DNA from: Luteibacter sp. dw_328
GTDB taxonomy: Bacteria > Pseudomonadota > Gammaproteobacteria > Xanthomonadales > Rhodanobacteraceae
Assembly (NCBI RefSeq): GCF_018449605.1
Contig: NZ_JAAVUW010000001.1
Span: 186,001-250,000, forward strand
Length of the DNA: 64,000 nt
Direction: 5' to 3'
Position 1 is the stretch's first letter. Every line of letters begins with the position of its first letter. Of this stretch, positions 15,840 to 29,047 are shown one piece after another. The notes beneath the pieces are model-generated. The model saw nothing but the letters and a program-made list of their open reading frames with translations, did not search any database and was not told where the DNA came from. Position numbers and translations under genes: made by a program.

Positions 15840-15863
15840 AAACAGTAGCGTTCACTACTGTTT
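15840..15863. promoter_or_regulatory. Perfect inverted repeat, likely TetR operator
   Basis: AAACAGTAG at 15840-15848 and CTACTGTTT at 15855-15863 are exact reverse complements separated by CGTTCA. The 24-bp palindrome lies 150 bp from the TetR start codon and 104 bp from the TBDR start codon, in the divergent control region. Size and symmetry match TetR-family operators. Confidence 0.75.
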
Positions 15864-15966: not shown

Positions 15967-18147
15967 ATGCATCACGCTGTACGTTTTGGATTAGGTCTCG
16001 CTGCCCTCGCAGCCGCTATCAGCGCCGCCGCCGAAACCACGGACGCGGATATCACGAAGCGCACGACGGACCTGCAGGGTGTGTCGGTTTCTGCCGGCAT
16101 TGACGACCCCAACCTCGCACCGCCCGGCAGCGCGGCGGCACTCGCGCCGACGCAAGGCAACCTGTTCGAGATCGAGCCGCAGTCGGTGTTGAGCCGAAAT
16201 TTCATCCAGACGATCGCGACACCCAAGGCGGATTACCTGGCCTTGCTGGAACTCACGCCCTCGGCGGTAAATGCGTCGCCGAACGGCGCTGGCCTTTCCA
16301 GCAAGAGCGGCACCATCCGCGGCTTCCAGGATGGCGAATACGACGTGACCTTCGACGGTATTCCGTTCGGTGATCCGGGCGCTTTCGGTCACGCCACCAC
16401 CGCGTTCTTTCCAGGACCCTCCCTGGACAAGGTCGTGGTCGATCGCGGTCCCGGTACGGCAAGCAACCTTGGTAATGCGACGTTTGGCGGCACCGTGGCG
16501 CTGTATTCGGCGCCGACCACCGACAAGCCCTCAGGTGAGGTGTCCGCGATGTACGGCAGCGGCGCTACCTGGCAGGTCGCCGGCGACGGCAATACGGGCG
16601 TGCTCAACAAGATCGGCACCGAGGCGTCGGTGAATTACAGCCACGTCGAATCCAACGGGCTGATCGATGACGCGGGGTTCAAGCAGGACAATATCCTGTT
16701 CAAGGTAAAGCAGCCGCTGGGCGACAACACGACCCTGACCCTGGTGGCCGACTACAACAAGGTGAAGTGGAACACCTTTACCGCACAGCCGAAGAAGCGG
16801 ACCGACATCCTCGGTCTGGACTTCGGTGGCCTCAATCAGGATCCGACCTCGCAGGGCTTTGCCGATTACAACGTCGACGACCGCCATGCGGACTTCGAAT
16901 ACCTCCAGCTGCATGGCGACTACGGCAGCTGGCGTATCGACAACAAGTTCTACACGTACGGCCTGCGTGACAGCGGTCCGGGCGGTGTGGACCTGCTCGG
17001 CAACACGCCGAATATCGCCTTGCTGCCCAATGGCGGTGTCCCCGGTGCGATCAACCACAGCCGTTACCGCGCCGCCGGCGATTTCCTCACGGCCGAGAAG
17101 GATGTCGGCAGCGACTGGCTCGAGAGCACCCTGAAAGCGGGCATATGGGCCGAGCGCACGTACCAGGTGCAGGACCAGGTCACCGTCGACCTCTCGACGA
17201 TGATGCCTCGCGTCCTCAAGGGCGAACCGAACGCCAACATCATCGATACCAGCCAGCACACGAATACGACGCAGAGCTACTTCGAGATCGAGTGGCGGCC
17301 ATTGGAAAACCTGAGCATCGTGCCCGGCGTGAAGCAGATCGTGTTCGATCGTACGATCGACGGCGTGTCCAACTTCCTGCCGGTCGGCGGTGACGGGCAC
17401 TTTGCCACCACGCTCGGCTCCGTGGCGGCCAACTACCGGTTCTCGCCGAACCTCGCGGCGTACGTGCAGGTGGCCAAGGGCTTCCAGGCGCCGAAGGTCA
17501 ATATCGTGCAGGGGCCTGCCGGTCACATCGATCCGCAGACGACCACGAACTACCAGGCCGGCGTGGTCTGGAAGACCCCGACCACCGTGGCCGACATCGA
17601 TGTTTATTACATCGACTTCGGCAACCTGGTGAGCAGCGTCGAGGAACCGATCGGTCCGGGCGGTTCGTTGATCAGCGTGTTCGCCAACCAGGGCGGCGTG
17701 ATCTACAAGGGCGTGGAAGGCGAACTGACGCACATCCTGGGCGATTCGGGATTCAGCTTCACCGCGAACGGCAGTATCAACAGCGCGTATTCGAAGACGA
17801 CGCACCTGCAGATCTCCAATTCGCCCATGTCCACGGCCGATGTCGGTTTCATCTACGACCAGGGCCCGCTGTACGGCTCGTTCCTCGTTAAATACGTGGG
17901 CACGCGTTTCACTGGCACCGGCGAGACCAGTGGGGCGACGTACAACCCGAACACCAAGCTGCCGACGTACAACTACACCAACTTCAACATCGGCTACCGC
18001 TTCACGCCTGACCTGAGACTGCAATTGTCGACCAATAACCTGTTCGACCACCGCACGGCCATCCAGGGCAACGGCCTGGCCAAGGATCCGACCTTCTACT
18101 ACCTGGCAGGTCGCAACTACACCGTGCAGGCCACCTACACGTTCTGA
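15967..18147 (+). CDS. TonB-dependent receptor of the GH92/PI-PLC locus
   Basis: 726 aa from ATG 15967 (AGGAG at 15952-15956). Signal peptide to about residue 23 (AAISAAAE). A TonB-box-like segment (LQGVSVSAG) is followed by the plug (SKSGTIRGFQDGEYDVTFDGIPFGDP; VVVDRGPGTASNLGNATFGGTVALYS) and a beta barrel ending in the classic aromatic terminus (YTVQATYTF). It is first of three same-strand genes with 29- and 18-bp gaps, so it is probably the transporter for the product of the GH92 and phospholipase-like enzymes. Control by the adjacent TetR is likely. Confidence 0.93.
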   Translation: MHHAVRFGLGLAALAAAISAAAETTDADITKRTTDLQGVSVSAGIDDPNLAPPGSAAALAPTQGNLFEIEPQSVLSRNFIQTIATPKADYLALLELTPSAVNASPNGAGLSSKSGTIRGFQDGEYDVTFDGIPFGDPGAFGHATTAFFPGPSLDKVVVDRGPGTASNLGNATFGGTVALYSAPTTDKPSGEVSAMYGSGATWQVAGDGNTGVLNKIGTEASVNYSHVESNGLIDDAGFKQDNILFKVKQPLGDNTTLTLVADYNKVKWNTFTAQPKKRTDILGLDFGGLNQDPTSQGFADYNVDDRHADFEYLQLHGDYGSWRIDNKFYTYGLRDSGPGGVDLLGNTPNIALLPNGGVPGAINHSRYRAAGDFLTAEKDVGSDWLESTLKAGIWAERTYQVQDQVTVDLSTMMPRVLKGEPNANIIDTSQHTNTTQSYFEIEWRPLENLSIVPGVKQIVFDRTIDGVSNFLPVGGDGHFATTLGSVAANYRFSPNLAAYVQVAKGFQAPKVNIVQGPAGHIDPQTTTNYQAGVVWKTPTTVADIDVYYIDFGNLVSSVEEPIGPGGSLISVFANQGGVIYKGVEGELTHILGDSGFSFTANGSINSAYSKTTHLQISNSPMSTADVGFIYDQGPLYGSFLVKYVGTRFTGTGETSGATYNPNTKLPTYNYTNFNIGYRFTPDLRLQLSTNNLFDHRTAIQGNGLAKDPTFYYLAGRNYTVQATYTF

Positions 18148-18176
18148 TCGGCAGGCCGAAAAAGGAAAGTCCATCG

Positions 18177-20423
18177 ATGTACACCTTTAGCTCCATCGCA
18201 CGGCGCACCCTCGCGGGCGCAATTGCCTCCCTGGTCCTGGCGGCGCCTGCCGCCATGGCTACCGACCATGCCACCGACGTCGACCCGTTCATCGGGTCGG
18301 ACTGGTTCGGTGAGGTCTTCGTCGGCGCCACCATGCCCTTCGGTATGGTGAAGGTTGGTCCCGACGTACGTGATTACGGTTATCGCAAGGGCTTCCAGAG
18401 CACCGGTGACATCCGCGGCTTCTCCCACCTGCACCTGAGCGGTGGCTCGGGTAAATATGAAAACGCCCGCGTCATTGCCACCACGGGCGATCTCGAGCCG
18501 GGCGCCTTCCATTCGCCGCGCGCGAATGAAATGGCCAGCCCCGGCTACTACGCCGTAGACCTGACGCGCTACCAGGTGAAGGCAGAGTTGACCGCCACGC
18601 GGCGCATGGGCATGCATCGTTATACGTTCGCCAAGGACGGCGATGGGCATGTGACGCTCGACCTCGACCTGCTCTACAAGGGGACGGGAGAAGAGACCCA
18701 GCAGTTTCTCGGTGGCGACCTGCGCATAGTCTCGCCTACCGAGATCGTCGGCGTGGGTCACTATGCCGGCGGCTGGAACGAAGGCGGCCCGTACGATGTG
18801 TACGTGGACATGATCGTCGATACGCCAGCGGTAGCGACGCGAACCTGGCTCGACAAGAACGTCAGCACGGCATTGTCGGTGCACGCCACCAGCGCCATGC
18901 CGCTTGGTGCCTCGTTCGATTACCAGGTGAAGGCGGGGCAGGCGATCCAGGCAAAGGTCGGCATTTCGTTCGTGAGCGAGGCACAGGCCCATCGCAATGC
19001 GACGGAAGAGGCGCGCGGCTGGGGCTTCGACGGCGTGCACCAGGCCGCCGTTGCCGCGTGGAACAAGGCGCTCGGTCGCATCGAGATCACCGGTGCGGAC
19101 GACACGCAGCGGCGGACGTTCTATACGGCGCTTTACCACACCATGATGATGCCGTCCGACCACACGGGTGAGAACCCGAAGTGGACGTCCGCTGAGCCGT
19201 ACTACGACGATTTCCAGGCGATCTGGGATACGTTCCGCAGTCAGGGCCCGCTTCTGACCCTGATCGCGCCGGACGTGCAGCGCGACATCGTCCGCTCGCT
19301 GGTGGATACCTACCGCCACGCCGGCTACATGCCCGACGCACGTGTCGGCAATGACAACGGTCGTACCCAGGGCGGCAGCAATGCCAACGTGCTGGTGGCG
19401 GATGCGTACGTCAAGGGTCTCACCGGTATCGACTACGCGACGGCTTTCAAGGCCATGGTGAAGGACGCCACGGTGGCGCCCACCGATGCGCGCAAGGAAG
19501 GACGTGGGGGTCTGGAGACATACAACCGACTTGGCTATGTGGCGCAGCCGACGGAACGCGCCGGTTCGCGCACCGTGGAATATGCCTATGATGACTTCAG
19601 CATTGCCGAAGTCGCCTGCGGTCTGGGTCATGACGATGAAGCGAAGCTATACCGTGCCCATGCCGGCAACTGGGCGAACCTGTGGGATGCGACGAGCGAG
19701 CAGGAAGGCGTCACGGGCTTCCTTCGTCCGCGCAACGAAGACGGCAGCTGGGCACCGCAGTACCTGGTCCGTCGGGGTACGTGGCCGGACTTCTACTATG
19801 AAGCCGACCTTTGGACGTATTCGATCTATGCCCCGCAGGACGTGCGCAAGCTGATCGCGATGTCAGGGGGCAACGAAGCCTTCGTGAAGCGCCTGGATAC
19901 GGTCTTCGACAACCTGCATTTCGATATCACCAACGAGCCGGGCTTCCTGATTCCGGACCTCTACCTCTGGGCCGGACGTCCGGACCTCACCGCCGATCGT
20001 GTCACGACGTTCCTGCATCGTGCCTTCGGCGCGGATCGTGGTGGCATCCCGGGTAACGACGACTCCGGCGCGATGTCCAGCTGGTACGCGTTCCAGTCGA
20101 TGGGCTTCTATCCGAACCCCGGCCAGGATGTGTACCTGATCGGCACGCCATCGTTCCGCGAGTCGTCGATCGACCTGGGTGGTGGCAACACCTTCAGCGT
20201 CCACGCCGAGAACTTCACGCCCGATGGCACGAACCGCTATGTGCAATCGGCTACGCTCAATGGTCAGCCGCTCAACGCGGCGTGGTTCCGCCACGGCCAG
20301 ATCGCCAAGGGTGGCACGCTGGATCTCGTGATGGGTCCGACACCGTCGCGCTGGGGTACGACCTCACCGCCGCCGTCCATGTCCGACTCCGACTTTACCC
20401 TCTGCAAACGCCATAGCCGCTGA
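18177..20423 (+). CDS. GH92 family alpha-mannosidase
   Basis: 748 aa, normal for the family, with signal peptide (LVLAAPAAMA). GH92 enzymes are Ca-dependent, inverting exo-alpha-mannosidases acting on N-glycan, mannan or GPI-type mannose. Seen: DPFIGSDWFGEVFVGATMPFGMVKVGPD, the RGFSHLHLSGG motif, YEADLWTYSIYAPQD with the probable general acid Glu at about residue 542, and GNDDSGAMSSWYAFQSMGFYP (residues 626 on) carrying the general-base Asp. Known GH92 linkage classes differ near the acid residue; EADLW is not the EGN form of well-studied alpha-1,2 enzymes, so the linkage is uncertain. AAAGGAAAG provides the ribosome-binding site. Cotranscribed with the TBDR and the PLC-like gene. Confidence 0.93.
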   Translation: MYTFSSIARRTLAGAIASLVLAAPAAMATDHATDVDPFIGSDWFGEVFVGATMPFGMVKVGPDVRDYGYRKGFQSTGDIRGFSHLHLSGGSGKYENARVIATTGDLEPGAFHSPRANEMASPGYYAVDLTRYQVKAELTATRRMGMHRYTFAKDGDGHVTLDLDLLYKGTGEETQQFLGGDLRIVSPTEIVGVGHYAGGWNEGGPYDVYVDMIVDTPAVATRTWLDKNVSTALSVHATSAMPLGASFDYQVKAGQAIQAKVGISFVSEAQAHRNATEEARGWGFDGVHQAAVAAWNKALGRIEITGADDTQRRTFYTALYHTMMMPSDHTGENPKWTSAEPYYDDFQAIWDTFRSQGPLLTLIAPDVQRDIVRSLVDTYRHAGYMPDARVGNDNGRTQGGSNANVLVADAYVKGLTGIDYATAFKAMVKDATVAPTDARKEGRGGLETYNRLGYVAQPTERAGSRTVEYAYDDFSIAEVACGLGHDDEAKLYRAHAGNWANLWDATSEQEGVTGFLRPRNEDGSWAPQYLVRRGTWPDFYYEADLWTYSIYAPQDVRKLIAMSGGNEAFVKRLDTVFDNLHFDITNEPGFLIPDLYLWAGRPDLTADRVTTFLHRAFGADRGGIPGNDDSGAMSSWYAFQSMGFYPNPGQDVYLIGTPSFRESSIDLGGGNTFSVHAENFTPDGTNRYVQSATLNGQPLNAAWFRHGQIAKGGTLDLVMGPTPSRWGTTSPPPSMSDSDFTLCKRHSR

Positions 20424-20441
20424 TCTACCCCGAGGATATTC

Positions 20442-21581
20442 ATGGCTTCCCTACGTTCCTACCTGCTGCCGCTTGCCGCGGCCTCATCTCTCGTCGCGTC
20501 GGCCTCGTTGCTCGCCGCCGCTACAAGCGACATCCACATCAACCAGATCCAGGTTATCGGTACGCATAACAGCTATCACGCCGGTTTCGCGCCCAGCGCC
20601 CGGCGCGTGATGCTGAAAGAAGCGCCGAAGGAATTCGCTGCGATCGACTATAGCCATCCGTCCTTGACCCGCCAGCTTGACGACGGTGTCCGCCAGGTGG
20701 AGCTGGATGTGTTCTCGGACGCCAAGGGTGGCCTGTATCTGGATCCGGCGATGGATCACATGATCGCGCTCAATGGCCTGCCGGCGGATCCGCCGACGGC
20801 AGCGCCGGGGACCTGGGAGAAGCCGGGTTTCAAGGTGATGCACATCCAGGGCGTGGACCAGCGCAGCACCTGCCAGCCGTTCACGGCGTGCCTGGCCGAA
20901 CTGCGCGCCTGGTCGAAGGCTCACCCGGGACACACGCCGCTGTTCGTCCTGGTCGAGACCAAGCAGGACCCGCTGAAGGTGAAGATCCCGACGGTGACCC
21001 CCGAGCCGTTCACCCCTGCCGTGTTCGATGCGCTGGACGCGGAAATCGCTTCGGTCTTCCCGCGCAACGAGATGGTCGTTCCCGACGATGTGCGCGGCGG
21101 GCACGCGAGTCTGGACGAAGCCGTGCGCCAGGGTGGCTGGCCCACCGTGGACAAGGCGCGTGGCAAGGTGGTGTTCCTGCTCGACCAGCGCAAGATGGAA
21201 GGTGTCTATAGTGAGGGTCATCCGTCGCTGCGAGGCCGCCTGATCTTCACCAACGCCACGCCGGGCGCCGCGGATGCCGCGTTCACCGAATGCAACGAGT
21301 GCTCGGCAGATGAGATCGATGCGCTGGTGCGTCGGGGCTATATCGTGCGTGCTCGTACCGACGATCCTGCACAAGGGCAGGGCCTGAAGAACGACGGCTC
21401 ACGTCGTGATGTTGTTCTGGGTAGTGGTGCACAGTTGATCAGCACGGACTACCCGGCGGGCGAGCCGTCGGAGCACGGCTATTCCGTCGGCTTCCCCGGT
21501 GGTGTGACGGTCCGTTGCAACCCGATTCTCACGAAGAAGGGCCAGTGCAAGGACGCTGCGCTGGACGTTGCTGTGAAGTGA
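20442..21581 (+). CDS. Ca2+-dependent phosphoinositide-specific phospholipase C-like protein
   Basis: 379 aa with a signal peptide (to about LLAAA, residue 27). It belongs to the PI-PLC TIM-barrel superfamily: IQVIGTHNSYHAGF places the first catalytic His at 42. A second strand, LDDGVRQVELDVFSDAKGG, has E87 and D89 in metal-ligand positions, and FKVMHIQGVDQRSTC and LFVLVETKQ follow. Known relatives of the Streptomyces Ca-dependent type cleave phosphatidylinositol via a cyclic inositol phosphate. Last gene of the TBDR - GH92 operon, 18 bp after GH92. Exported, so it acts on external or periplasmic substrate. Substrate choice here is inferred. Confidence 0.88.
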   Translation: MASLRSYLLPLAAASSLVASASLLAAATSDIHINQIQVIGTHNSYHAGFAPSARRVMLKEAPKEFAAIDYSHPSLTRQLDDGVRQVELDVFSDAKGGLYLDPAMDHMIALNGLPADPPTAAPGTWEKPGFKVMHIQGVDQRSTCQPFTACLAELRAWSKAHPGHTPLFVLVETKQDPLKVKIPTVTPEPFTPAVFDALDAEIASVFPRNEMVVPDDVRGGHASLDEAVRQGGWPTVDKARGKVVFLLDQRKMEGVYSEGHPSLRGRLIFTNATPGAADAAFTECNECSADEIDALVRRGYIVRARTDDPAQGQGLKNDGSRRDVVLGSGAQLISTDYPAGEPSEHGYSVGFPGGVTVRCNPILTKKGQCKDAALDVAVK

Positions 21582-21592
21582 TTTAGCGGCCG

Positions 21593-21623
21593 GGGCCTGA
21601 CGCGACGTCGTAGCGTCAGGCCC
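21593..21623. terminator. Strong hairpin between convergent operons, possible bidirectional terminator
   Basis: An 11-bp perfect stem (GGGCCTGACGC at 21593-21603, GCGTCAGGCCC at 21613-21623) with a 9-base loop, located between the convergent PLC-like and cysA genes. The right arm touches the cysA stop codon. There is no T-run on either side, so intrinsic termination is uncertain; it may instead stabilise 3' ends. Confidence 0.55.
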
Positions 21624-22747
21624 TACGACTGCTCGGTATTCTGACGACGCATGATCCAACGTTCCCCGACCACGGGTACGCCAGCAGGGCCGTCACCAAG
21701 AGGAAAGGCCACCAGCCTGGTCGGGGCGACGCGCAAGGCCACCCCGGGGGTGAGAGCAAGACGCGCCAGATCCTCACTGGCCACATCGACTTCAAGCGTC
21801 TGATCGATGTCCGCGACGTAGATGTCCAGATGCGCAATGCTCCCCGCGAGATAGACGTGTCGCAGCTTCGCCTCCCACGCTGGCTGACCTTCAGGCACCA
21901 ACAGCGACAGATGCTCCGGCCTGACATAACCCACAGCCGATCGGAACAGCCCGCCCGCGGCACCTGCCGGAAGGGACCATCCACCGGCGCCCCACGTGTC
22001 TCCCCGCCGTTCCAGCGCAATGCGGTTCGTCCTGCCGATGAACTCGCAGACGAAGGGCGTGGCAGGATCCTGGTAGACCTCGTGGGGCCGACCCACCTGT
22101 TCGATGCGACCCTTGTTCATGACCACGATGCGGTCGGCAAGCTCGAGCGCTTCTTCCTGGTCGTGGGTGACGAACACGGTGGTCAGCTCGAGCTCCTCGT
22201 GGAGCTCACGCAGCCAGCGGCGCAACGCGGTGCGCACCTGCGCATCGAGTGCACCGAAGGGCTCGTCGAGCAGCAACACATCCGGCTCGACGGCCAGGGC
22301 ACGTGCGAGGGCGACCCGCTGGCGCTGGCCGCCGGAGAGTTGGCTGGGATAGCGGTTGCCCAGTTCCGCCAGCTGTACGCGCTTCAACAACTCGTCGACA
22401 CGCGCACGGATCTGGTCACGCGAAGGGCGCCTGCGCCGTGGCCGCACGCGGAGGCCGAAGGCGACGTTTTCGCGCACGGTCAGGTGACGGAACAACGCAT
22501 AGTGCTGGAACACGAGGCCGACGTTGCGCTCCCGCGCACTGGCGGCAAGGAAGTCCTGCCCGTTCTGGGTGACGCTTCCCTCATCGGGATAGTCGAGACC
22601 GGCAAGAATGCGCAACAAGGTGGTCTTCCCCGATCCGGAAGGACCGACGAGCGCAACGAATTCGCCCGGAGCGATGTCGAGGCTCACGTCGTCGAGCGCG
22701 GCAATGTCGGGAAAGTGGCGGCTCAGCCGTTTGAGAGCGAGTGTCAT
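21623..22747 (-). CDS. cysA: Sulfate/thiosulfate ABC transporter ATP-binding protein CysA
   Basis: 374 aa. Walker [10 protein letters not shown] at residues 35-43, Q-loop near VFQHYALF, signature LSGGQRQR at 137-144, Walker [13 protein letters not shown] from 157, H-loop in [17 protein letters not shown]. The C-terminal extension (from about 235, including [10 protein letters not shown]) is the TOBE-like regulatory domain of CysA. Last gene of the sbp-cysT-cysW-cysA operon, with its start overlapping the cysW stop by 1 bp (TGATG). It energises sulfate import at the inner membrane. Confidence 0.95.
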
Positions 22748-23592
22748 CAGTGATTCTCAGCGGCTTGATAGCGCCATTCCAGGGCGGACTTCACTGCCAG
22801 GGTCAACAGCGCCAGGAGCGCAAGCAGCGAAGCGATGGCGAAGGCGCCGACGTAGTTGTACTCGTTGTAACGCATCTCCACTTCCAGGGGCATGGTGGTC
22901 GTCAGCCCGCGAATGTGTCCGGATACCACCGACACGGCGCCGAACTCGCCCATGGCGCGCGCGTTGCAGAGCAGCACACCGTAGAGCAGCGCCCAACGGA
23001 TATTGGGGAGCGTCACCCGGAAGAACGTCTGCAGGCCACTGGCGCCAAGCACGCGTGCGACCTCTTCCTCTTCGCTGCCCTGGGACTGCATCAGGGGAAT
23101 GAGTTCGCGCGCGACGAAGGGCAGCGTGATGAAGATCGTTGCGAGAACGAGGCCAGGGACGGCGAAGATGATCTTGATCCCATGCGCTGCGAGCCACGGC
23201 CCGAACCAGCCCTGCGCACCGAACATCAGCACGTACAGCAGACCCGTGACCACCGGTGAGACGGACAGGGGCAGGTCGATAAGCGCGCCGAGCAAGGCTT
23301 TACCGCGGAACTGGAACCGGGTCATGGCCCAGGCGGCCGCGATCCCGAACACCACATTGAGCGGCACCGTGATGGCCGCCACCAGCAAGGTCAGCCGGAT
23401 GGCGGCCATTGCTTCGGGCTGGTCAATGCTTTCGACGAACGCGTGGGCTCCCTGGCGGAAGGCTTCGACAAACACGGAAGCCAGCGGCACCACGAGGAAG
23501 AGACAGAGAAAGAGGATGGAAGCCACGATGATCGACGCCCGGCCAAGACGCCGCGCGACACTGGCAGGACGTCCGGGACGGCCCGCCGTCAT
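22747..23592 (-). CDS. cysW: Sulfate ABC transporter permease CysW
   Basis: 281 aa from ATG 23592, chosen because it forms an ATGA overlap with the cysT stop; an earlier in-frame start at 23610 would add six residues. Six membrane segments. The EAA-loop region ([47 protein letters not shown]) is typical of the sulfate permease pair. Forms the heterodimeric channel with CysT. Confidence 0.95.
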
Positions 23593-24413
23593 GCGGACTG
23601 CTCCGCCCACCGCCGGGTCCAGCGCTGCAGCGCTGAAACCAGAACGAGGAGAACGAGCGAGAAGGCCAGCATGACGACGCCCAATGCAGCCGCCGTGGCG
23701 TAGTCGAATTCATCGAGCCGTTGGACGATAAGCAGCGGCGCAATTTCCGAGCGCAGGGGGATGTTACCGGCGATGAAGATCACCGAGCCGTACTCGCCCA
23801 CGGCCCGGGCCAGCGCCAGGGCAAATCCGGTCAGCAGGGTCGGAACCAGGGTGGGGAGCACGACGCGCAGAAAGGTCTGCAGGCCCGTTGCGCCCAGGCT
23901 CTCGGCGGCGTCTTCGACGTCCTGTTCGAGAGACTGCAGCACGGGCTGGAGCGTGCGCACGACAAAAGGGAAGCCGACAAACACCATCGCGAGAAGCACG
24001 CCAAGCGGGGTATAAGCCACCTGGATGCCGAGCGGCACGAGCCAACGGCCGAACCACCCGTTAGGCGCATAGATGGCTGTCAGCGCAATACCGGCCACGG
24101 CGGTGGGCAGTGCGAAGGGCAGGTCGATGAGCGCGTCGAGAATGCGCCGGCCGGGAAAGCGATAGCGGACGAGCGCCCATGTCACCATCAGGCCGACCAC
24201 GACGTTGATGCCCGCAGCCAGCAGCGCTCCACCGAAACTCAGCTTGAGCGCCGCCAGCGTGCGGGGCGATGCGAGCAGCTTCAGGATGCCGGCGAAACCG
24301 ACATCCGACGCCTTCCATGCAAGGGCCGCGAGCGGCAGCAGTACGATTAGGCCAAGGTAGGTGACGGCAAAGCCGAGGCTCAATCCGAAGCCGGGCAAAA
24401 CCCTTCGGCGCAT
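23589..24413 (-). CDS. cysT: Sulfate ABC transporter permease CysT (CysU)
   Basis: 274 aa, six membrane segments. It starts [28 protein letters not shown], with the conserved [17 protein letters not shown] and the EAA loop [29 protein letters not shown]. Two bases separate its start from the stop of the binding-protein gene, and its stop overlaps cysW, so translation is tightly coupled. Confidence 0.95.
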
Positions 24414-24415
24414 GG

Positions 24416-25414
24416 TCAGTTGCCCGGGCCGATCTGGTCGAAGATGGCGCCATCGGCAAAGAACTTCGCCTGCGCCTTGCGCCAGTCGCCGAACACCTCG
24501 GCCAGGGTGAAGGTCTTCACCTGCGGAAACTGCGCGGCGTACTTCGCGGCGACGTCGGGCGAGCGGGGCCGGTAGAAGTTGCGCGCTTCGATGTCCTGGG
24601 CCTGCGGGGAGTAGAGGAACTTAAGGTAGGCGTCTGCGACCTCACGGGTGCCGCGCTCCGCGGCATTCTTGTCGACAACAGCTACCGGTGGTTCGGCGAG
24701 GATCGTGATGGACGGAATGACGATATCGAACTGATCGCCGCCGGCTTCCTTCTTCGCCAGCAGCGCTTCGTTTTCCCAGGCAACCAGAACGTCGCCGATG
24801 CCGCGCTGGGTGAACGTCGTCGTGGCGCCTCGTGCTCCCGTGTCGAGCACGGGCACGTGCTGGAAGAGCGTCTTGACGAAGGTCCTGGCCTTATCATCGG
24901 TGCCGCCGGGCAGCTTGAGCGCGTAACCCCAGGCAGCGAGGAAGTTCCAGCGGGCGCCGCCGGATGTCTTGGGGTTGGGAGTGACGACCTGGACCCCGTC
25001 CCTGACAAGGTCACCCCAGTCGCGAATGGCCTTCGGGTTGCCCTTGCGGACCAGGAAGACGATGGTCGACGTATAGGGCGAGGCGTTGTCTGGCAGGCGG
25101 GTTTGCCAATCCTTGGCCAGCAGGCCACGGTCGGCCACGGCGTCGATGTCATAGGCCAGTGCGAGTGTCACGACATCGGCGGGCAAGCCGTCGACAACAG
25201 CGCGCGCCTGTTTTCCTGAGCCGCCATGGGACATCTGGATAGTGACGTTGTCACCATGCTTCGCCTTCCAGTCGGCTGCGAAGGCCGTATTCACCGCCTT
25301 GTAGAGCTCGCGCGTGGGGTCGTAGGACACGTTGAGCAGCGTGACGTCCTTGGCCATGGCGGGTAACACCATGACGGTGGCTACGAGAGCCAGGAGGGTG
25401 GGACGAAGCTTCAT
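24416..25414 (-). CDS. sbp: Periplasmic sulfate-binding protein
   Basis: 332 aa with a signal peptide ([21 protein letters not shown]). Mature start [21 protein letters not shown], then [46 protein letters not shown], the sulfate-binding signatures, and later [25 protein letters not shown] precedes the start. First gene of the importer operon. Sbp (sulfate) and CysP (thiosulfate) cannot be told apart with certainty by eye; Sbp is preferred. No cysB or other regulator gene is adjacent. Confidence 0.93.
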
Positions 25415-26412: not shown

Positions 26413-26446
26413 TTCATAAAGAAATAAAGTACATTTTTCTTATGAA
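26413..26446. promoter_or_regulatory. Inverted repeat over the antitoxin start, likely autoregulatory operator
   Basis: TTCATAA at 26413-26419 and TTATGAA at 26440-26446 are exact reverse complements with a 20-base AT-rich spacer. The right arm contains the ATG of the antitoxin gene. AbiEi-type antitoxins are known to repress their own promoters through inverted repeats, so this is a good operator candidate. The region is markedly AT-rich compared with its surroundings. Confidence 0.6.
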
Positions 26447-27068
26447 AACCCGACCAGAATACGCGCCGGCGATTCGGAGCCGGATACGGAAATTCGCTCG
26501 TGGACGGGTGTTCAGGCCGGGGGACCTCATTCCGTTTGGCCCGCGGGCATGTGTCGATCAGGTCCTTTTGGACCTCGTACGGTCCGGAGAGGTGCGTAGG
26601 CTCGCCCGCGGCGTCTTCGCGAGGCCTCGCCTGAGTCCACTGGTAGGTGAGGTTCTGCCCGGTGCGTGGGAAGTAGCTGAGGCCATTGTTCGCTCGGAAG
26701 GTGGTCAGCTGGAAATCCATGGTGCTGAGGCAGCTCGCAAGCTGGGACTAAGCACGCAGATGCAGGTCCGCCCGGTTTTCTATACGACGGCTCGATCGCG
26801 TATTGTTCGCCTTGAAAACGGAGGCGAGGTCACGCTCCAGCACGTCGCCGCAAGGCGTCTTGCTTTTCGTGGAACGCCGGTCGGGCTTGCGCTGAACGCA
26901 CTGTGGTATCTGGGGCGCGAGCACGTCACTGCCGATGTCGTGGCGCAGATTTCTCGTAAGCTCCCCGCTGGGGCGTTTGCGGATCTGTGCAACGCCACCG
27001 CCGTCATGCCCGGCTGGATGGCAAAGGTCGTCGGAACTGCGCGGGGTCATCTCGCTCAAACGGCGTAG
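26442..27068 (+). CDS. DUF6088 / AbiEi-like antitoxin and transcriptional regulator
   Basis: 208 aa. N-terminal winged-helix type sequence (IRSRIRKFARGRVFRPGDLIPFGPRACVDQVLLDLVRSGEVRRLARGVFARP) matches DUF6088/AbiEi. The C-terminal part (LEIHGAEAARKLGLSTQMQVRPVFYTT) is the antitoxin portion. In type IV systems the antitoxin does not bind the toxin but counters its effect and represses the operon. Thirty bases separate it from the toxin gene. The ATG has no visible Shine-Dalgarno sequence and sits inside an inverted repeat, so the mRNA may be leaderless. Confidence 0.88.
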   Translation: MKTRPEYAPAIRSRIRKFARGRVFRPGDLIPFGPRACVDQVLLDLVRSGEVRRLARGVFARPRLSPLVGEVLPGAWEVAEAIVRSEGGQLEIHGAEAARKLGLSTQMQVRPVFYTTARSRIVRLENGGEVTLQHVAARRLAFRGTPVGLALNALWYLGREHVTADVVAQISRKLPAGAFADLCNATAVMPGWMAKVVGTARGHLAQTA

Positions 27069-27098
27069 TAGGAAGTACCTGAAGAAGGGATATCTTCG

Positions 27099-28127
27099 AT
27101 GAAGACAGCGGCGCGCGCGGGCAACAACAAGGGTCCCGAGTTTATTCGTCTATCGCCAGACATGCAGCGCGATGTCCTAGAGCGCGGTGCGAGCCAGTCG
27201 CATCTGAACCCGCAATTGCTCGAGAAGGACATCTGGGTCTGTTGGGCATTGGATGCGGTGTTTCGCATACCCGATGCCTATGCGATGGCCTTCAAGGGTG
27301 GCACTTCATTGTCCAAAGCGTACGGCGCCATTCGACGGTTGTCCGAGGATGTCGATATCACCATTGACTACCAGTCCCTGGATCCGACTGTCGATCCTTT
27401 TGAGCCGGGTCTCTCGCGCACCAGGCAGAAGAAATTCTCTGAGTCGCTGAAGGCGAGAGTTCAGAAATATCTGGTCGATGCCATGGTTCCGTGGCTGGAA
27501 CAATGCCTGGCCAACGACGGTCTGACGAAGCACACCGTGACGGTCGAGGCATCTGAGGGTGCGTTGCGGGTGAACTACCCTAGCTGTGCGGACCGGGGCG
27601 AGTATATCGCTGAGTCAGTGCTTCTCGAGTTCGGCGGACGCAATCGAACCGAGCCGCATCAGGTCATGCCGATTCACGCAGAAATCGCTTCTTCCTTTGC
27701 GGATATCACGTTCCCGGTCGCGGTTGTTCCCGTCCTTTCAGGCGAGCGTACGTTTTGGGAGAAGGCGACGCTCGTCCATGCGGCATGTGTCCGGGAAAGC
27801 ATCAGGGATAATCCGCAACGCCAGGCACGGCACTGGTATGACCTCGCGATGCTCGCAGACCATATGCTCGGGTGCGAAGCGGTGAAGAACCGGGCGCTGT
27901 TGCGGGACGTGGTCGCCATCAAGCAACAGTTCTACGCGTACTCAAGGTTCAACTACGACCGGTGCCTTACGAAAGGCTGGATGCTTATTCCTGACGAAGA
28001 TCAGTTGACGCTGCTCAAGGCGGATTTTGATGCAATGACTTCGGCGGGAATGTTGTCTGAGAACCCGCTCGCCTTTGCCGATGTCGTGACGCGGCTGCAA
28101 ACGCTTGAAGCAGTGCTCAACACCTGA
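27099..28127 (+). CDS. AbiEii/AbiGii-family nucleotidyltransferase toxin
   Basis: 342 aa. The nucleotidyltransferase fold signature is intact: FKGGTSLSKAY (GGTSLSK at residues 67-73), then LSEDVDITI with Asp84 and Asp86 as metal ligands. The conserved later motif ERTFWEKATLVHAA and RHWYDLAML also match. Known relatives stop growth by adding nucleotides to tRNA or related targets, and some protect against phage by abortive infection. A good ribosome-binding site (GAAGGG) precedes the ATG, and a strong terminator follows. All motifs seem intact, so it is probably active. Confidence 0.93.
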   Translation: MKTAARAGNNKGPEFIRLSPDMQRDVLERGASQSHLNPQLLEKDIWVCWALDAVFRIPDAYAMAFKGGTSLSKAYGAIRRLSEDVDITIDYQSLDPTVDPFEPGLSRTRQKKFSESLKARVQKYLVDAMVPWLEQCLANDGLTKHTVTVEASEGALRVNYPSCADRGEYIAESVLLEFGGRNRTEPHQVMPIHAEIASSFADITFPVAVVPVLSGERTFWEKATLVHAACVRESIRDNPQRQARHWYDLAMLADHMLGCEAVKNRALLRDVVAIKQQFYAYSRFNYDRCLTKGWMLIPDEDQLTLLKADFDAMTSAGMLSENPLAFADVVTRLQTLEAVLNT

Positions 28128-28200: not shown

Positions 28201-28932
28201 TTAATTCAGCTCTTTGATCCGGATATTGCGAAACGCAATGCGGATGGGCGGCACGCCCTTGTCTTCGCCGCCCTGCAGGGCAATACGGCCTTTGTGGAAG
28301 CGCGCGAAATCCGCCATCTTCGCGAACTTCGTCTTTGCCACGAGGGCCGTCCACTCCGGCGTCCATAGGGTGGTGTCGACCGTCTTGTGTCCGTTCTGGA
28401 AGAACTGCACATGGCCGTGGTCGACGATGATCTCGATGGCGTTCCAGTTCCCGTGCTCGTTGACGTTCTCGATGTCCGACGAGATCAGGTCGAAGAGGTC
28501 GCCGGACCGCTCGTACAGCGTATAGCTGTCCGGCTTGGTGCACACCAGGTCGGCGATCTGCATTTCCGGGCCGGTTTCCCAGGTGTACTTGTACTTCGGT
28601 GATTCCTTGACGTTGAACATCACGCCGGCATCGGCGCAGGCGGTCATTTTCCAGTCGAGCTTGAGGTCGAAGTTCTCGTATTCCTTCTCGCTGACCAGGT
28701 CCGCGAAGTCCGCGTCCGGTGCCTTGAGGTTGCGATCGAGCTGGATCGTGCCGTCGACCACGCTCCAGTCCTTACCCGTGCCCTTCTGACCGAAGGAGTG
28801 CCAGCCCTGGAGCGTCTTGCCGTCGAACAGGGAATGCCAGCCCTGCGCCGTTTCGGCGGCGGTCGGGACGGTGTCTGCGGCGAAGGCGGGCAGAGCAGCG
28901 AGGCAGCAGGCGATGGCGAGCGCACGAAGCAT
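28201..28932 (-). CDS. DUF1080 (3-keto-disaccharide hydrolase-like) secreted protein
   Basis: 243 aa from ATG 28932, where a signal peptide begins (MLRALAIACCLAALPAFA). The lectin-like DUF1080 fold is recognised from GWHSLFDGKTLQGWHSFGQKG, DWSVVDGTIQLD, SEKEYENFDLKLDWKM, GVMFNVKES, EMQIAD and IALQGGEDKGVPPIRIAFRNIRIKEL. Family members hydrolyse 3-keto-glycosides or bind sugars; the name is broad, so activity here is tentative. Convergent with the toxin-antitoxin operon, separated by the terminator. Confidence 0.9.
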   Translation of the reverse strand: MLRALAIACCLAALPAFAADTVPTAAETAQGWHSLFDGKTLQGWHSFGQKGTGKDWSVVDGTIQLDRNLKAPDADFADLVSEKEYENFDLKLDWKMTACADAGVMFNVKESPKYKYTWETGPEMQIADLVCTKPDSYTLYERSGDLFDLISSDIENVNEHGNWNAIEIIVDHGHVQFFQNGHKTVDTTLWTPEWTALVAKTKFAKMADFARFHKGRIALQGGEDKGVPPIRIAFRNIRIKELN

Positions 28933-29047
28933 GGGGACGTTCCGGGGGAGGGAAACGCCGAGCGTAACCGCAGCAGCGTCCCGGATAACCTGCCGTAAGT
29001 CACATAGAGCCATGCGTTGGCGGGCCGGTGTAAAGAATCTGAGGGAG

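Follow-up and report, generated by a model that had tools for sequence, protein, structure and literature searches.

A TonB-dependent receptor, GH92 glycoside hydrolase and phospholipase C operon of Luteibacter with a probable role in the use of mannosylated inositol phospholipids

Luteibacter sp. dw_328 carries, within a 64,000-nucleotide stretch of contig NZ_JAAVUW010000001.1 (positions 186,001 to 250,000; hereafter the window), a three-gene operon at window positions 15967-21581 that joins a TonB-dependent outer-membrane receptor (TBDR), a glycoside hydrolase of family GH92 and a Ca2+-type phosphoinositide-specific phospholipase C (PI-PLC; PF16670). Its gene content and relatives suggest that it is probably a dedicated utilisation locus for mannosylated inositol phospholipids, be they glycosylphosphatidylinositol (GPI) anchors, fungal glycosyl-inositol-phosphoceramides (GIPCs) or phosphatidylinositol mannosides (PIMs). 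Judged by gene order across genomes, GH92 and PI-PLC travel as a pair. An earlier note made from the DNA alone had described the operon and proposed from synteny that its products work together. The operon is confirmed: all three genes exceed their Pfam cut-offs and lie on the plus strand with gaps of 29 bp (TBDR-GH92) and 18 bp (GH92-PI-PLC). The functional link is supported by recurrence of the trio, amid varying neighbours, in different genera, one betaproteobacterium and Acidobacteriota, by reading frames that fuse the two enzymes, and by inositol genes and phosphatases at related loci.

The TBDR begins with an ATG, with AGGAG 11-15 bases upstream, and is the likely importer of the released product. 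The N-termini of the GH92 and the PI-PLC resemble signal peptides by eye; with export judged in this way, the window genes unite a receptor, exported enzymes and a regulator, as in a TBDR-based utilisation locus. In Bacteroides and xanthomonads, polysaccharide utilisation loci and TBDR carbohydrate loci likewise place a regulator, a TonB importer and exported enzymes in one unit. The window locus differs from them in its TetR-type regulator, its phospholipase, its presumed glycolipid substrate and the lack of SusD, none of the three operon proteins being SusD-like in a Pfam scan.

Table 1. Features of the operon and its upstream region (window coordinates).
Feature	Position	Strand	Remarks
TetR-family regulator, 240 aa	14967..15689	-	PF00440, E 1.6e-13; divergent from the trio
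Candidate TetR operator	15840..15863		Perfect 24-bp palindrome AAACAGTAG-CGTTCA-CTACTGTTT, between the TetR and TBDR genes
TonB-dependent outer-membrane receptor (TBDR), 726 aa	15967..18147	+	PF00593 and PF07715
GH92 glycoside hydrolase, 748 aa	18177..20423	+	PF07971/PF17678; subfamily here named type A
Ca2+-dependent PI-PLC-C1, 379 aa	20442..21581	+	PF16670

The window PI-PLC covers the whole of PF16670 (positions 1-329 of 329) with a score of 411.2 bits against a cut-off of 29.9. His42, Asn43, Glu87, Asp89 and His134 are invariant in 32 of 32 sequences, so both active-site histidines and the metal-ligand positions are in place; we presume these roles for the His and the Asn/Glu/Asp residues from eukaryotic PLC. 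Glu172, a further candidate position, is Asn in seven of the 32. Identity to the Streptomyces antibioticus PLC1 (3h4w) and the Pseudomonas sp. PI-PLC (5fyo, 5fyp and 5fyr) is 16-20% by Foldseek and 23-27% by VIA, and the window enzyme differs from both in being coupled to a receptor and a GH92, to which it is fused in some relatives. Among named records, Luteibacter sp. OK325 has the closest PI-PLC (97%). A class-wide scan found PF16670 in five of 321 gammaproteobacterial genomes, the window's own among them, indicating that the domain is uncommon in Gammaproteobacteria outside the window's family.

The partner enzyme scores 507 bits with PF07971, 183 bits with PF17678 and 442 with TIGR01180 (cut-off 250), and a fold search returned GH92 structures at ranks 1-39, with BT3130 at the top. 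Its catalytic acid Glu542 and base Asp629 are invariant in 16 aligned sequences. Together with its relatives it forms a single clade of 23 sequences, here called type A (support 100/100; stem of 2.02 changes per column), which stands apart from the window genome's five other GH92s as well as from other GH92s near PI-PLC genes. The 580-loop, which carries the His-Glu pair of α-1,2-mannosidases, is absent in all 23 type A sequences, and the base motif of the window enzyme is NDD, a pattern that passages of PMC12858847 tie to enzymes without α-1,2 activity. With the α-mannosidases BT3130, BT3965, BT3990 and Aspergillus AnGH92A the window GH92 has the two-domain fold and the catalytic acid/base in common; it differs in belonging to a clade separate from the GH92s compared here, in its PI-PLC partner and in the replacement of the equivalents of Trp390, Met400 and Cys399. 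The predicted structure of the GH92 is of mediocre quality around its active site (mean pLDDT 75; below 50 at residues 388-401, 529-551 and 626-630), and we therefore draw no structural claim on the pocket from it.

Scanning 233 genomes of the window's family, Rhodanobacteraceae, for type A GH92 gave an unbiased test of linkage to PI-PLC. Orthologs with 70-100% identity occur in ten genomes, and seven of them, the window's included, adjoin a PI-PLC gene on the same strand, preceded by a receptor of the same kind and a divergent TetR gene. In two further genomes (G188 and G205) the type A GH92 is next to a larger cluster and separated from PI-PLC by ~11 and ~21 kb. PF16670 itself matches in 40 of the 233 genomes, strongly in 35 (E < 1e-100). 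The flanks of the trio are alike in the window and in OK325 and different in the other family loci. For wider comparison 47 PI-PLC genes were chosen on the basis of PI-PLC similarity and of family, not at random; duplicates (L008, L020 and L025) were removed, and L021 and L029, in which no PI-PLC gene was called, were left out. In a tree of 46 of these genes (a 250-aa call from L010 was dropped), the window clade, with support 100/100, comprises seven trios and two solitary genes. Outside the class, Paraburkholderia humisilvae has a trio with 51-63% identity to that of the window and wider gaps (74 and 147 bp). Its trio GH92 is the sole GH92 of the genome, and it alone among 299 Burkholderiaceae genomes yielded a type A GH92 (E 1e-150).

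Acidobacteriota extend the pairing to another phylum. Of 300 acidobacterial genomes, 61 match PF16670 with E up to 1e-40, at 87 listed places, and 60 of these places from 45 of the 61 genomes, mainly the best-scoring, were read; fragments and some contig-edge or other matches were omitted. A separate PI-PLC open reading frame (ORF) is present in 57 of the 60 loci. Within 9.5 kb it is accompanied by a TBDR-like ORF in 48 of them, by a phosphatase-like ORF in 19 (some named by BLAST matches only 23-33% identical to reference proteins), by inositol oxygenase in 14 and by a GH92 in 13. Type A accounts for eight of the 13 GH92s; these eight were all found by looking near PI-PLC and are hence uninformative on how often type A occurs without it. 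Seven of the eight type A loci have PI-PLC, receptor and GH92 co-directional, whereas in L183 the GH92 and receptor run opposite to the PI-PLC; in L203 and L207 a weakly CehA-like ORF stands between receptor and PI-PLC.

The remaining three loci, each from a different genome, encode GH92-PI-PLC fusions. These frames, which measure 1152, 1148 and 1140 codons from stop to stop, follow the domain order of the window genes, contain GH92N, GH92 and PI-PLC-C1 domains that all lie far above cut-off, and are mutually 75-78% identical. One of them (L171) has no ATG before codon 82 and presumably starts at a GTG at codon 17. Two abut a GH38 α-mannosidase frame (L188 12472-16104; L189 3273-6920), with a receptor-like ORF before it on the same strand, and the third has a TonB-type outer-membrane barrel just upstream. 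In a fusion both activities share a single chain that is presumably exported, an arrangement that favours one substrate and one compartment. With 269 GH92s in the 45 acidobacterial genomes (~6 per genome), a GH92 near PI-PLC would be expected by chance in ~1.3 of the 60 loci; 16 were seen, fusions included. Our linkage p values treat related genomes as independent and use rough copy numbers (1.5 inositol oxygenase copies were assumed), and are to be read as orders of magnitude. A chance neighbourhood is rejected by recurrence in the family, in the window PI-PLC clade, and among the acidobacterial loci and fusions.

The wider set of 47 loci points to what the phospholipase yields. Names of neighbouring genes rest on BLAST comparison with reference proteins, in some cases at only 23-33% identity. 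A TBDR lies within two genes of PI-PLC in 41 of the 47 loci, and a phosphatase of one of two reference kinds in 26. One example of each kind was scanned against NCBIfam: the first, a histidine acid phosphatase of Dyella-type loci, has AppA phytase and glucose-1-phosphatase/inositol phosphatase as its best models, under their cut-offs, and the second, a CehA/McbA metallohydrolase, passes its cut-off. Myo-inositol iol operons are physically joined to PI-PLC and GH92 in G188 and G205, where the order is IolD, IolE, IolB, IolA, GH92, TBDR, PI-PLC, metallohydrolase, PfkB kinase, GH92, RpiR and IolG; both GH92 genes of this cluster are additional to the type A gene. IolD, IolE, IolB, IolG and MMSDH of G188 and IolG of G205 pass NCBIfam cut-offs, and IolD, IolE, IolB and IolA of G205 are 82-90% identical to their G188 counterparts. 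Assignment of the G188 PfkB kinase as IolC is unproven, the protein falling below the cut-offs of both the fructokinase and IolC models. In G208 and G209, iolD and iolB lie ~12-16 kb from PI-PLC; a GH38-like gene beside the PI-PLC of G208 is weak (22.7 bits against a cut-off of 25).

Inositol genes recur in more distant bacteria. Plasmid pACIX901 of Granulicella tundricola (476 kb; L111, apparently the same place as L200 of the genome search) carries inositol oxygenase, GH92, a LacI regulator, an outer-membrane-type protein and PI-PLC; this GH92 is not type A and shares 58% identity with the second GH92 in the cluster of G188. A Catenovulum locus combines PI-PLC, a metallophosphoesterase, a TBDR and inositol oxygenase, and a plasmid of the Bacteroidota member Hymenobacter volaticus (L112) combines SusC/SusD, PI-PLC and a CehA/McbA metallohydrolase, with no GH92 annotated in 19 kb. 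Because phosphatases, iol genes and inositol oxygenase accompany related PI-PLC loci, inositol phosphate is likely to be their common product. As evidence we rely on the physical linkage of PI-PLC to iol genes within 15 kb, found in four of the 20 genomes that have both a strong PI-PLC and iolB over cut-off (distances by hand). Co-presence of iolB, which is over cut-off in 20 of the 35 strong-PI-PLC genomes and 23 of the 198 others (hand counts), follows kinship and was not used as support. The window genome differs from the iol-linked clusters in that its iol genes are not joined to PI-PLC: IolA, IolB, IolD, IolE and the first part of IolG, truncated where the retrieved sequence stops, lie with an ABC permease on contig 19 (L086), apart from the operon.

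Other neighbourhoods of PI-PLC were also recorded. Loci L070/L071 and L072/L073 hold an inositol cluster with PI-PLC, TBDR, two GH92 types, CehA/McbA and a fructokinase-like PfkB, as if inositol and mannose were both used. A 32-kb plasmid of Zymomonas mobilis (L117) has PI-PLC beside a divergent TonB-dependent receptor, a context that added nothing to the reading; Zymomonas accounts for 14 of 23 plasmid records with a PI-PLC match. In Sphingobium (L030, 5525-10921) PI-PLC stands beside two bacterial phospholipase C-type genes (PF04185 with PF05506), with a TBDR further on. The genes downstream in L099 (biotin-synthase-like and an aminotransferase) were uninformative.

Control of the operon appears to be local. 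The divergent TetR gene adjoins the trio in the window and in six other family loci, and those TetRs are 77-96% identical; none similar was found in the 21-kb Paraburkholderia humisilvae locus. Versions of the palindrome occur at the same place in seven family loci, where 0, 0, 1, 2, 3, 4 and 5 of the 18 arm bases are changed, and its symmetry drops with distance to five of nine arm pairs in two loci. The 22-bp core has one exact site in the 5.05-Mb genome, and the next-best match is a single place with three mismatches; for the window, 0.03 sites are expected at up to three mismatches. As a control, with up to three mismatches allowed, the reversed core gave 37 matches and the core itself two, so matches with three mismatches are meaningless and only the single exact site counts. 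The TetR protein is probably a local repressor of the operon, and the near genome-unique candidate operator fits a local regulator with one target.

These elements can be ordered into a putative route. TetR would control expression of the trio. The GH92 would strip a sugar, most likely α-linked mannose, off the inositol headgroup or its glycan; the PI-PLC would then release the headgroup from the lipid as inositol phosphate or a small glycan phosphate; and the TBDR would take this product, or the untrimmed glycan, into the periplasm. An enzyme encoded outside the operon would then remove the phosphate, and inositol would enter the Iol pathway encoded elsewhere in the genome. PI-PLC attack uses the inositol 2-hydroxyl, and a sugar on O2, as in PIMs and some fungal inositol-phosphoceramides, would block it until removed, which would explain the coupling of GH92 and PI-PLC. 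From its habitat, the likely source of the lipids is fungal membranes and GPI proteins: Luteibacter is reported to live with fungi and inside hyphae of Ascomycota (PMC9040847, PMC11165876 and PMC5361626).

Several findings weigh against a dedicated inositol-glycolipid locus. Comparison with reference proteins revealed no iol gene or phosphatase within five genes of the window PI-PLC, and two trio genomes (G123 and G052) have no iolB match, so inositol use via the Iol pathway is not obligatory. Among trio loci further removed from that of the window, the candidate operator becomes weak. The linkage that the earlier note expected among relatives holds for most GH92 orthologs, but a minority are separate: one genome (G165, 85% complete) carries the GH92 ortholog with no PI-PLC seen, and two of the nine window-clade PI-PLCs (L009 and L090) stand alone. 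Moreover, of the 47 PI-PLC genes of all kinds, 36 have no GH92 within five genes, though 41 have a receptor within two. Such a distribution would suit two parallel, co-regulated activities on fungal cells, in which wall mannan or mannoproteins would be the target of the GH92 and plain phosphatidylinositol that of the PI-PLC, and passages of PMC5930347 describe characterised GH92 enzymes that act on mannan and N-glycans. We consider this unlikely because GH92-PI-PLC fusions exist, because the window GH92 has its own pocket motif and clade, unlike the genome's five other GH92s, and because P. humisilvae has no GH92 besides that of the trio. An ordinary mannan locus is likewise disfavoured by the separate clade and the missing α-1,2 loop.

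The remaining difficulty lies in the -1 subsite. With the numbering offset set by hand from the catalytic acid and Asp353, BT3130 Gly92 and Asp353 align with Gly92 and Asp351 of the window GH92, and Trp390, Met400 and Cys399 align with Ala388, Gln398 and Thr397. Ala occupies the Trp position in 22 of the 23 type A sequences and Gly in the other, the Met position is Gln in all, and a motif, MPD[AG]RxGNxxGRTQGGSNA, replaces the usual -1 residues. Since the -1 contacts (Gly92, Asp353, Trp390 and Met400 of BT3130) are otherwise conserved whatever the linkage specificity, according to passages of PMC5930347, mannose as the glycone is not assured. The earlier note called the enzyme an α-mannosidase; at the -1 pocket it departs from the textbook form. 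Removal of another sugar from the inositol lipid, such as glucosamine, galactose or a uronic acid, would leave the PI-PLC reading unchanged and could account for the altered pocket, the long clade stem, and the aldose-epimerase- and galactokinase-like genes (named by eye) beside the acidobacterial GH92 of L022. We hold this to be quite improbable, given that the catalytic pair and the Asp353 and Gly92 positions are retained and that GH38 α-mannosidase frames adjoin two of the fusions. In addition, passages of PMC12858847 describe AnGH92A as an active α-1,3-mannosidase with Gln at the Met400 position; it shares NDD and the absent 580-loop with the window enzyme, whose changed pocket is therefore still compatible with activity on mannose. 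Finally, the enzymes might form an interaction factor that sheds or strips GPI-anchored proteins at the surface of fungi or plants and so modifies the partner, import being of secondary importance. Their apparent export and the reports of Luteibacter in hyphae accord with this reading, but it is very improbable, since related loci carry inositol catabolism genes, inositol oxygenase, phosphatases and receptors, which speak for nutrition.

The proposed utilisation locus leads us to a bolder and more doubtful proposal, made here tentatively. Type A GH92 may be a new glycolipid-specific subfamily that cuts a sugar on or near the inositol ring and evolved as the partner of PI-PLC because an O2 sugar blocks the latter. 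The fusions might then be single-chain enzymes that dismantle GPI anchors, mannosyl-inositol-phosphoceramides and GIPCs, or PIMs to sugar, inositol phosphate and lipid, and the loci a class that crosses phyla.

Downstream of the trio, and convergent with it, lies an ABC transporter set (21623-25414) in which profiles confirm an ABC ATPase and a binding protein; it resembles, we presume, a sulfate uptake system. Further on are an AbiEi/AbiEii pair (26442-28127; PADLOC E 8e-53 and 8e-91), a candidate type IV toxin-antitoxin or abortive-infection unit, and a 3-keto-disaccharide hydrolase family protein (28201-29013; PF06439, E 2.9e-40).

The earlier note knew of no described operon of this kind, and our literature searches agree, with subscription journals largely outside their reach. 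Searches for PI-PLC combined with GH92, TonB-dependent receptors or inositol catabolism found no such locus in a mostly open-access literature, bringing up nothing but an Aeromonas comparative-genomics paper that looks unrelated, so an earlier description is possible, and the open literature on inositol-phosphoceramide and PI-PLC showed none by title. Much carbon and phosphorus in soil resides in fungal inositol sphingolipids and GPI anchors, and we found no bacterial locus devoted to them in the open-access literature. If our reading is true, the genes, a regulator with a near genome-unique candidate operator and natural fusion enzymes would be at hand for direct testing, and the GH92 subfamily might prove useful to trim GPI or inositol glycolipids. 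The operon would then represent a route by which fungus-associated bacteria could feed on, or act upon, hyphal membranes.

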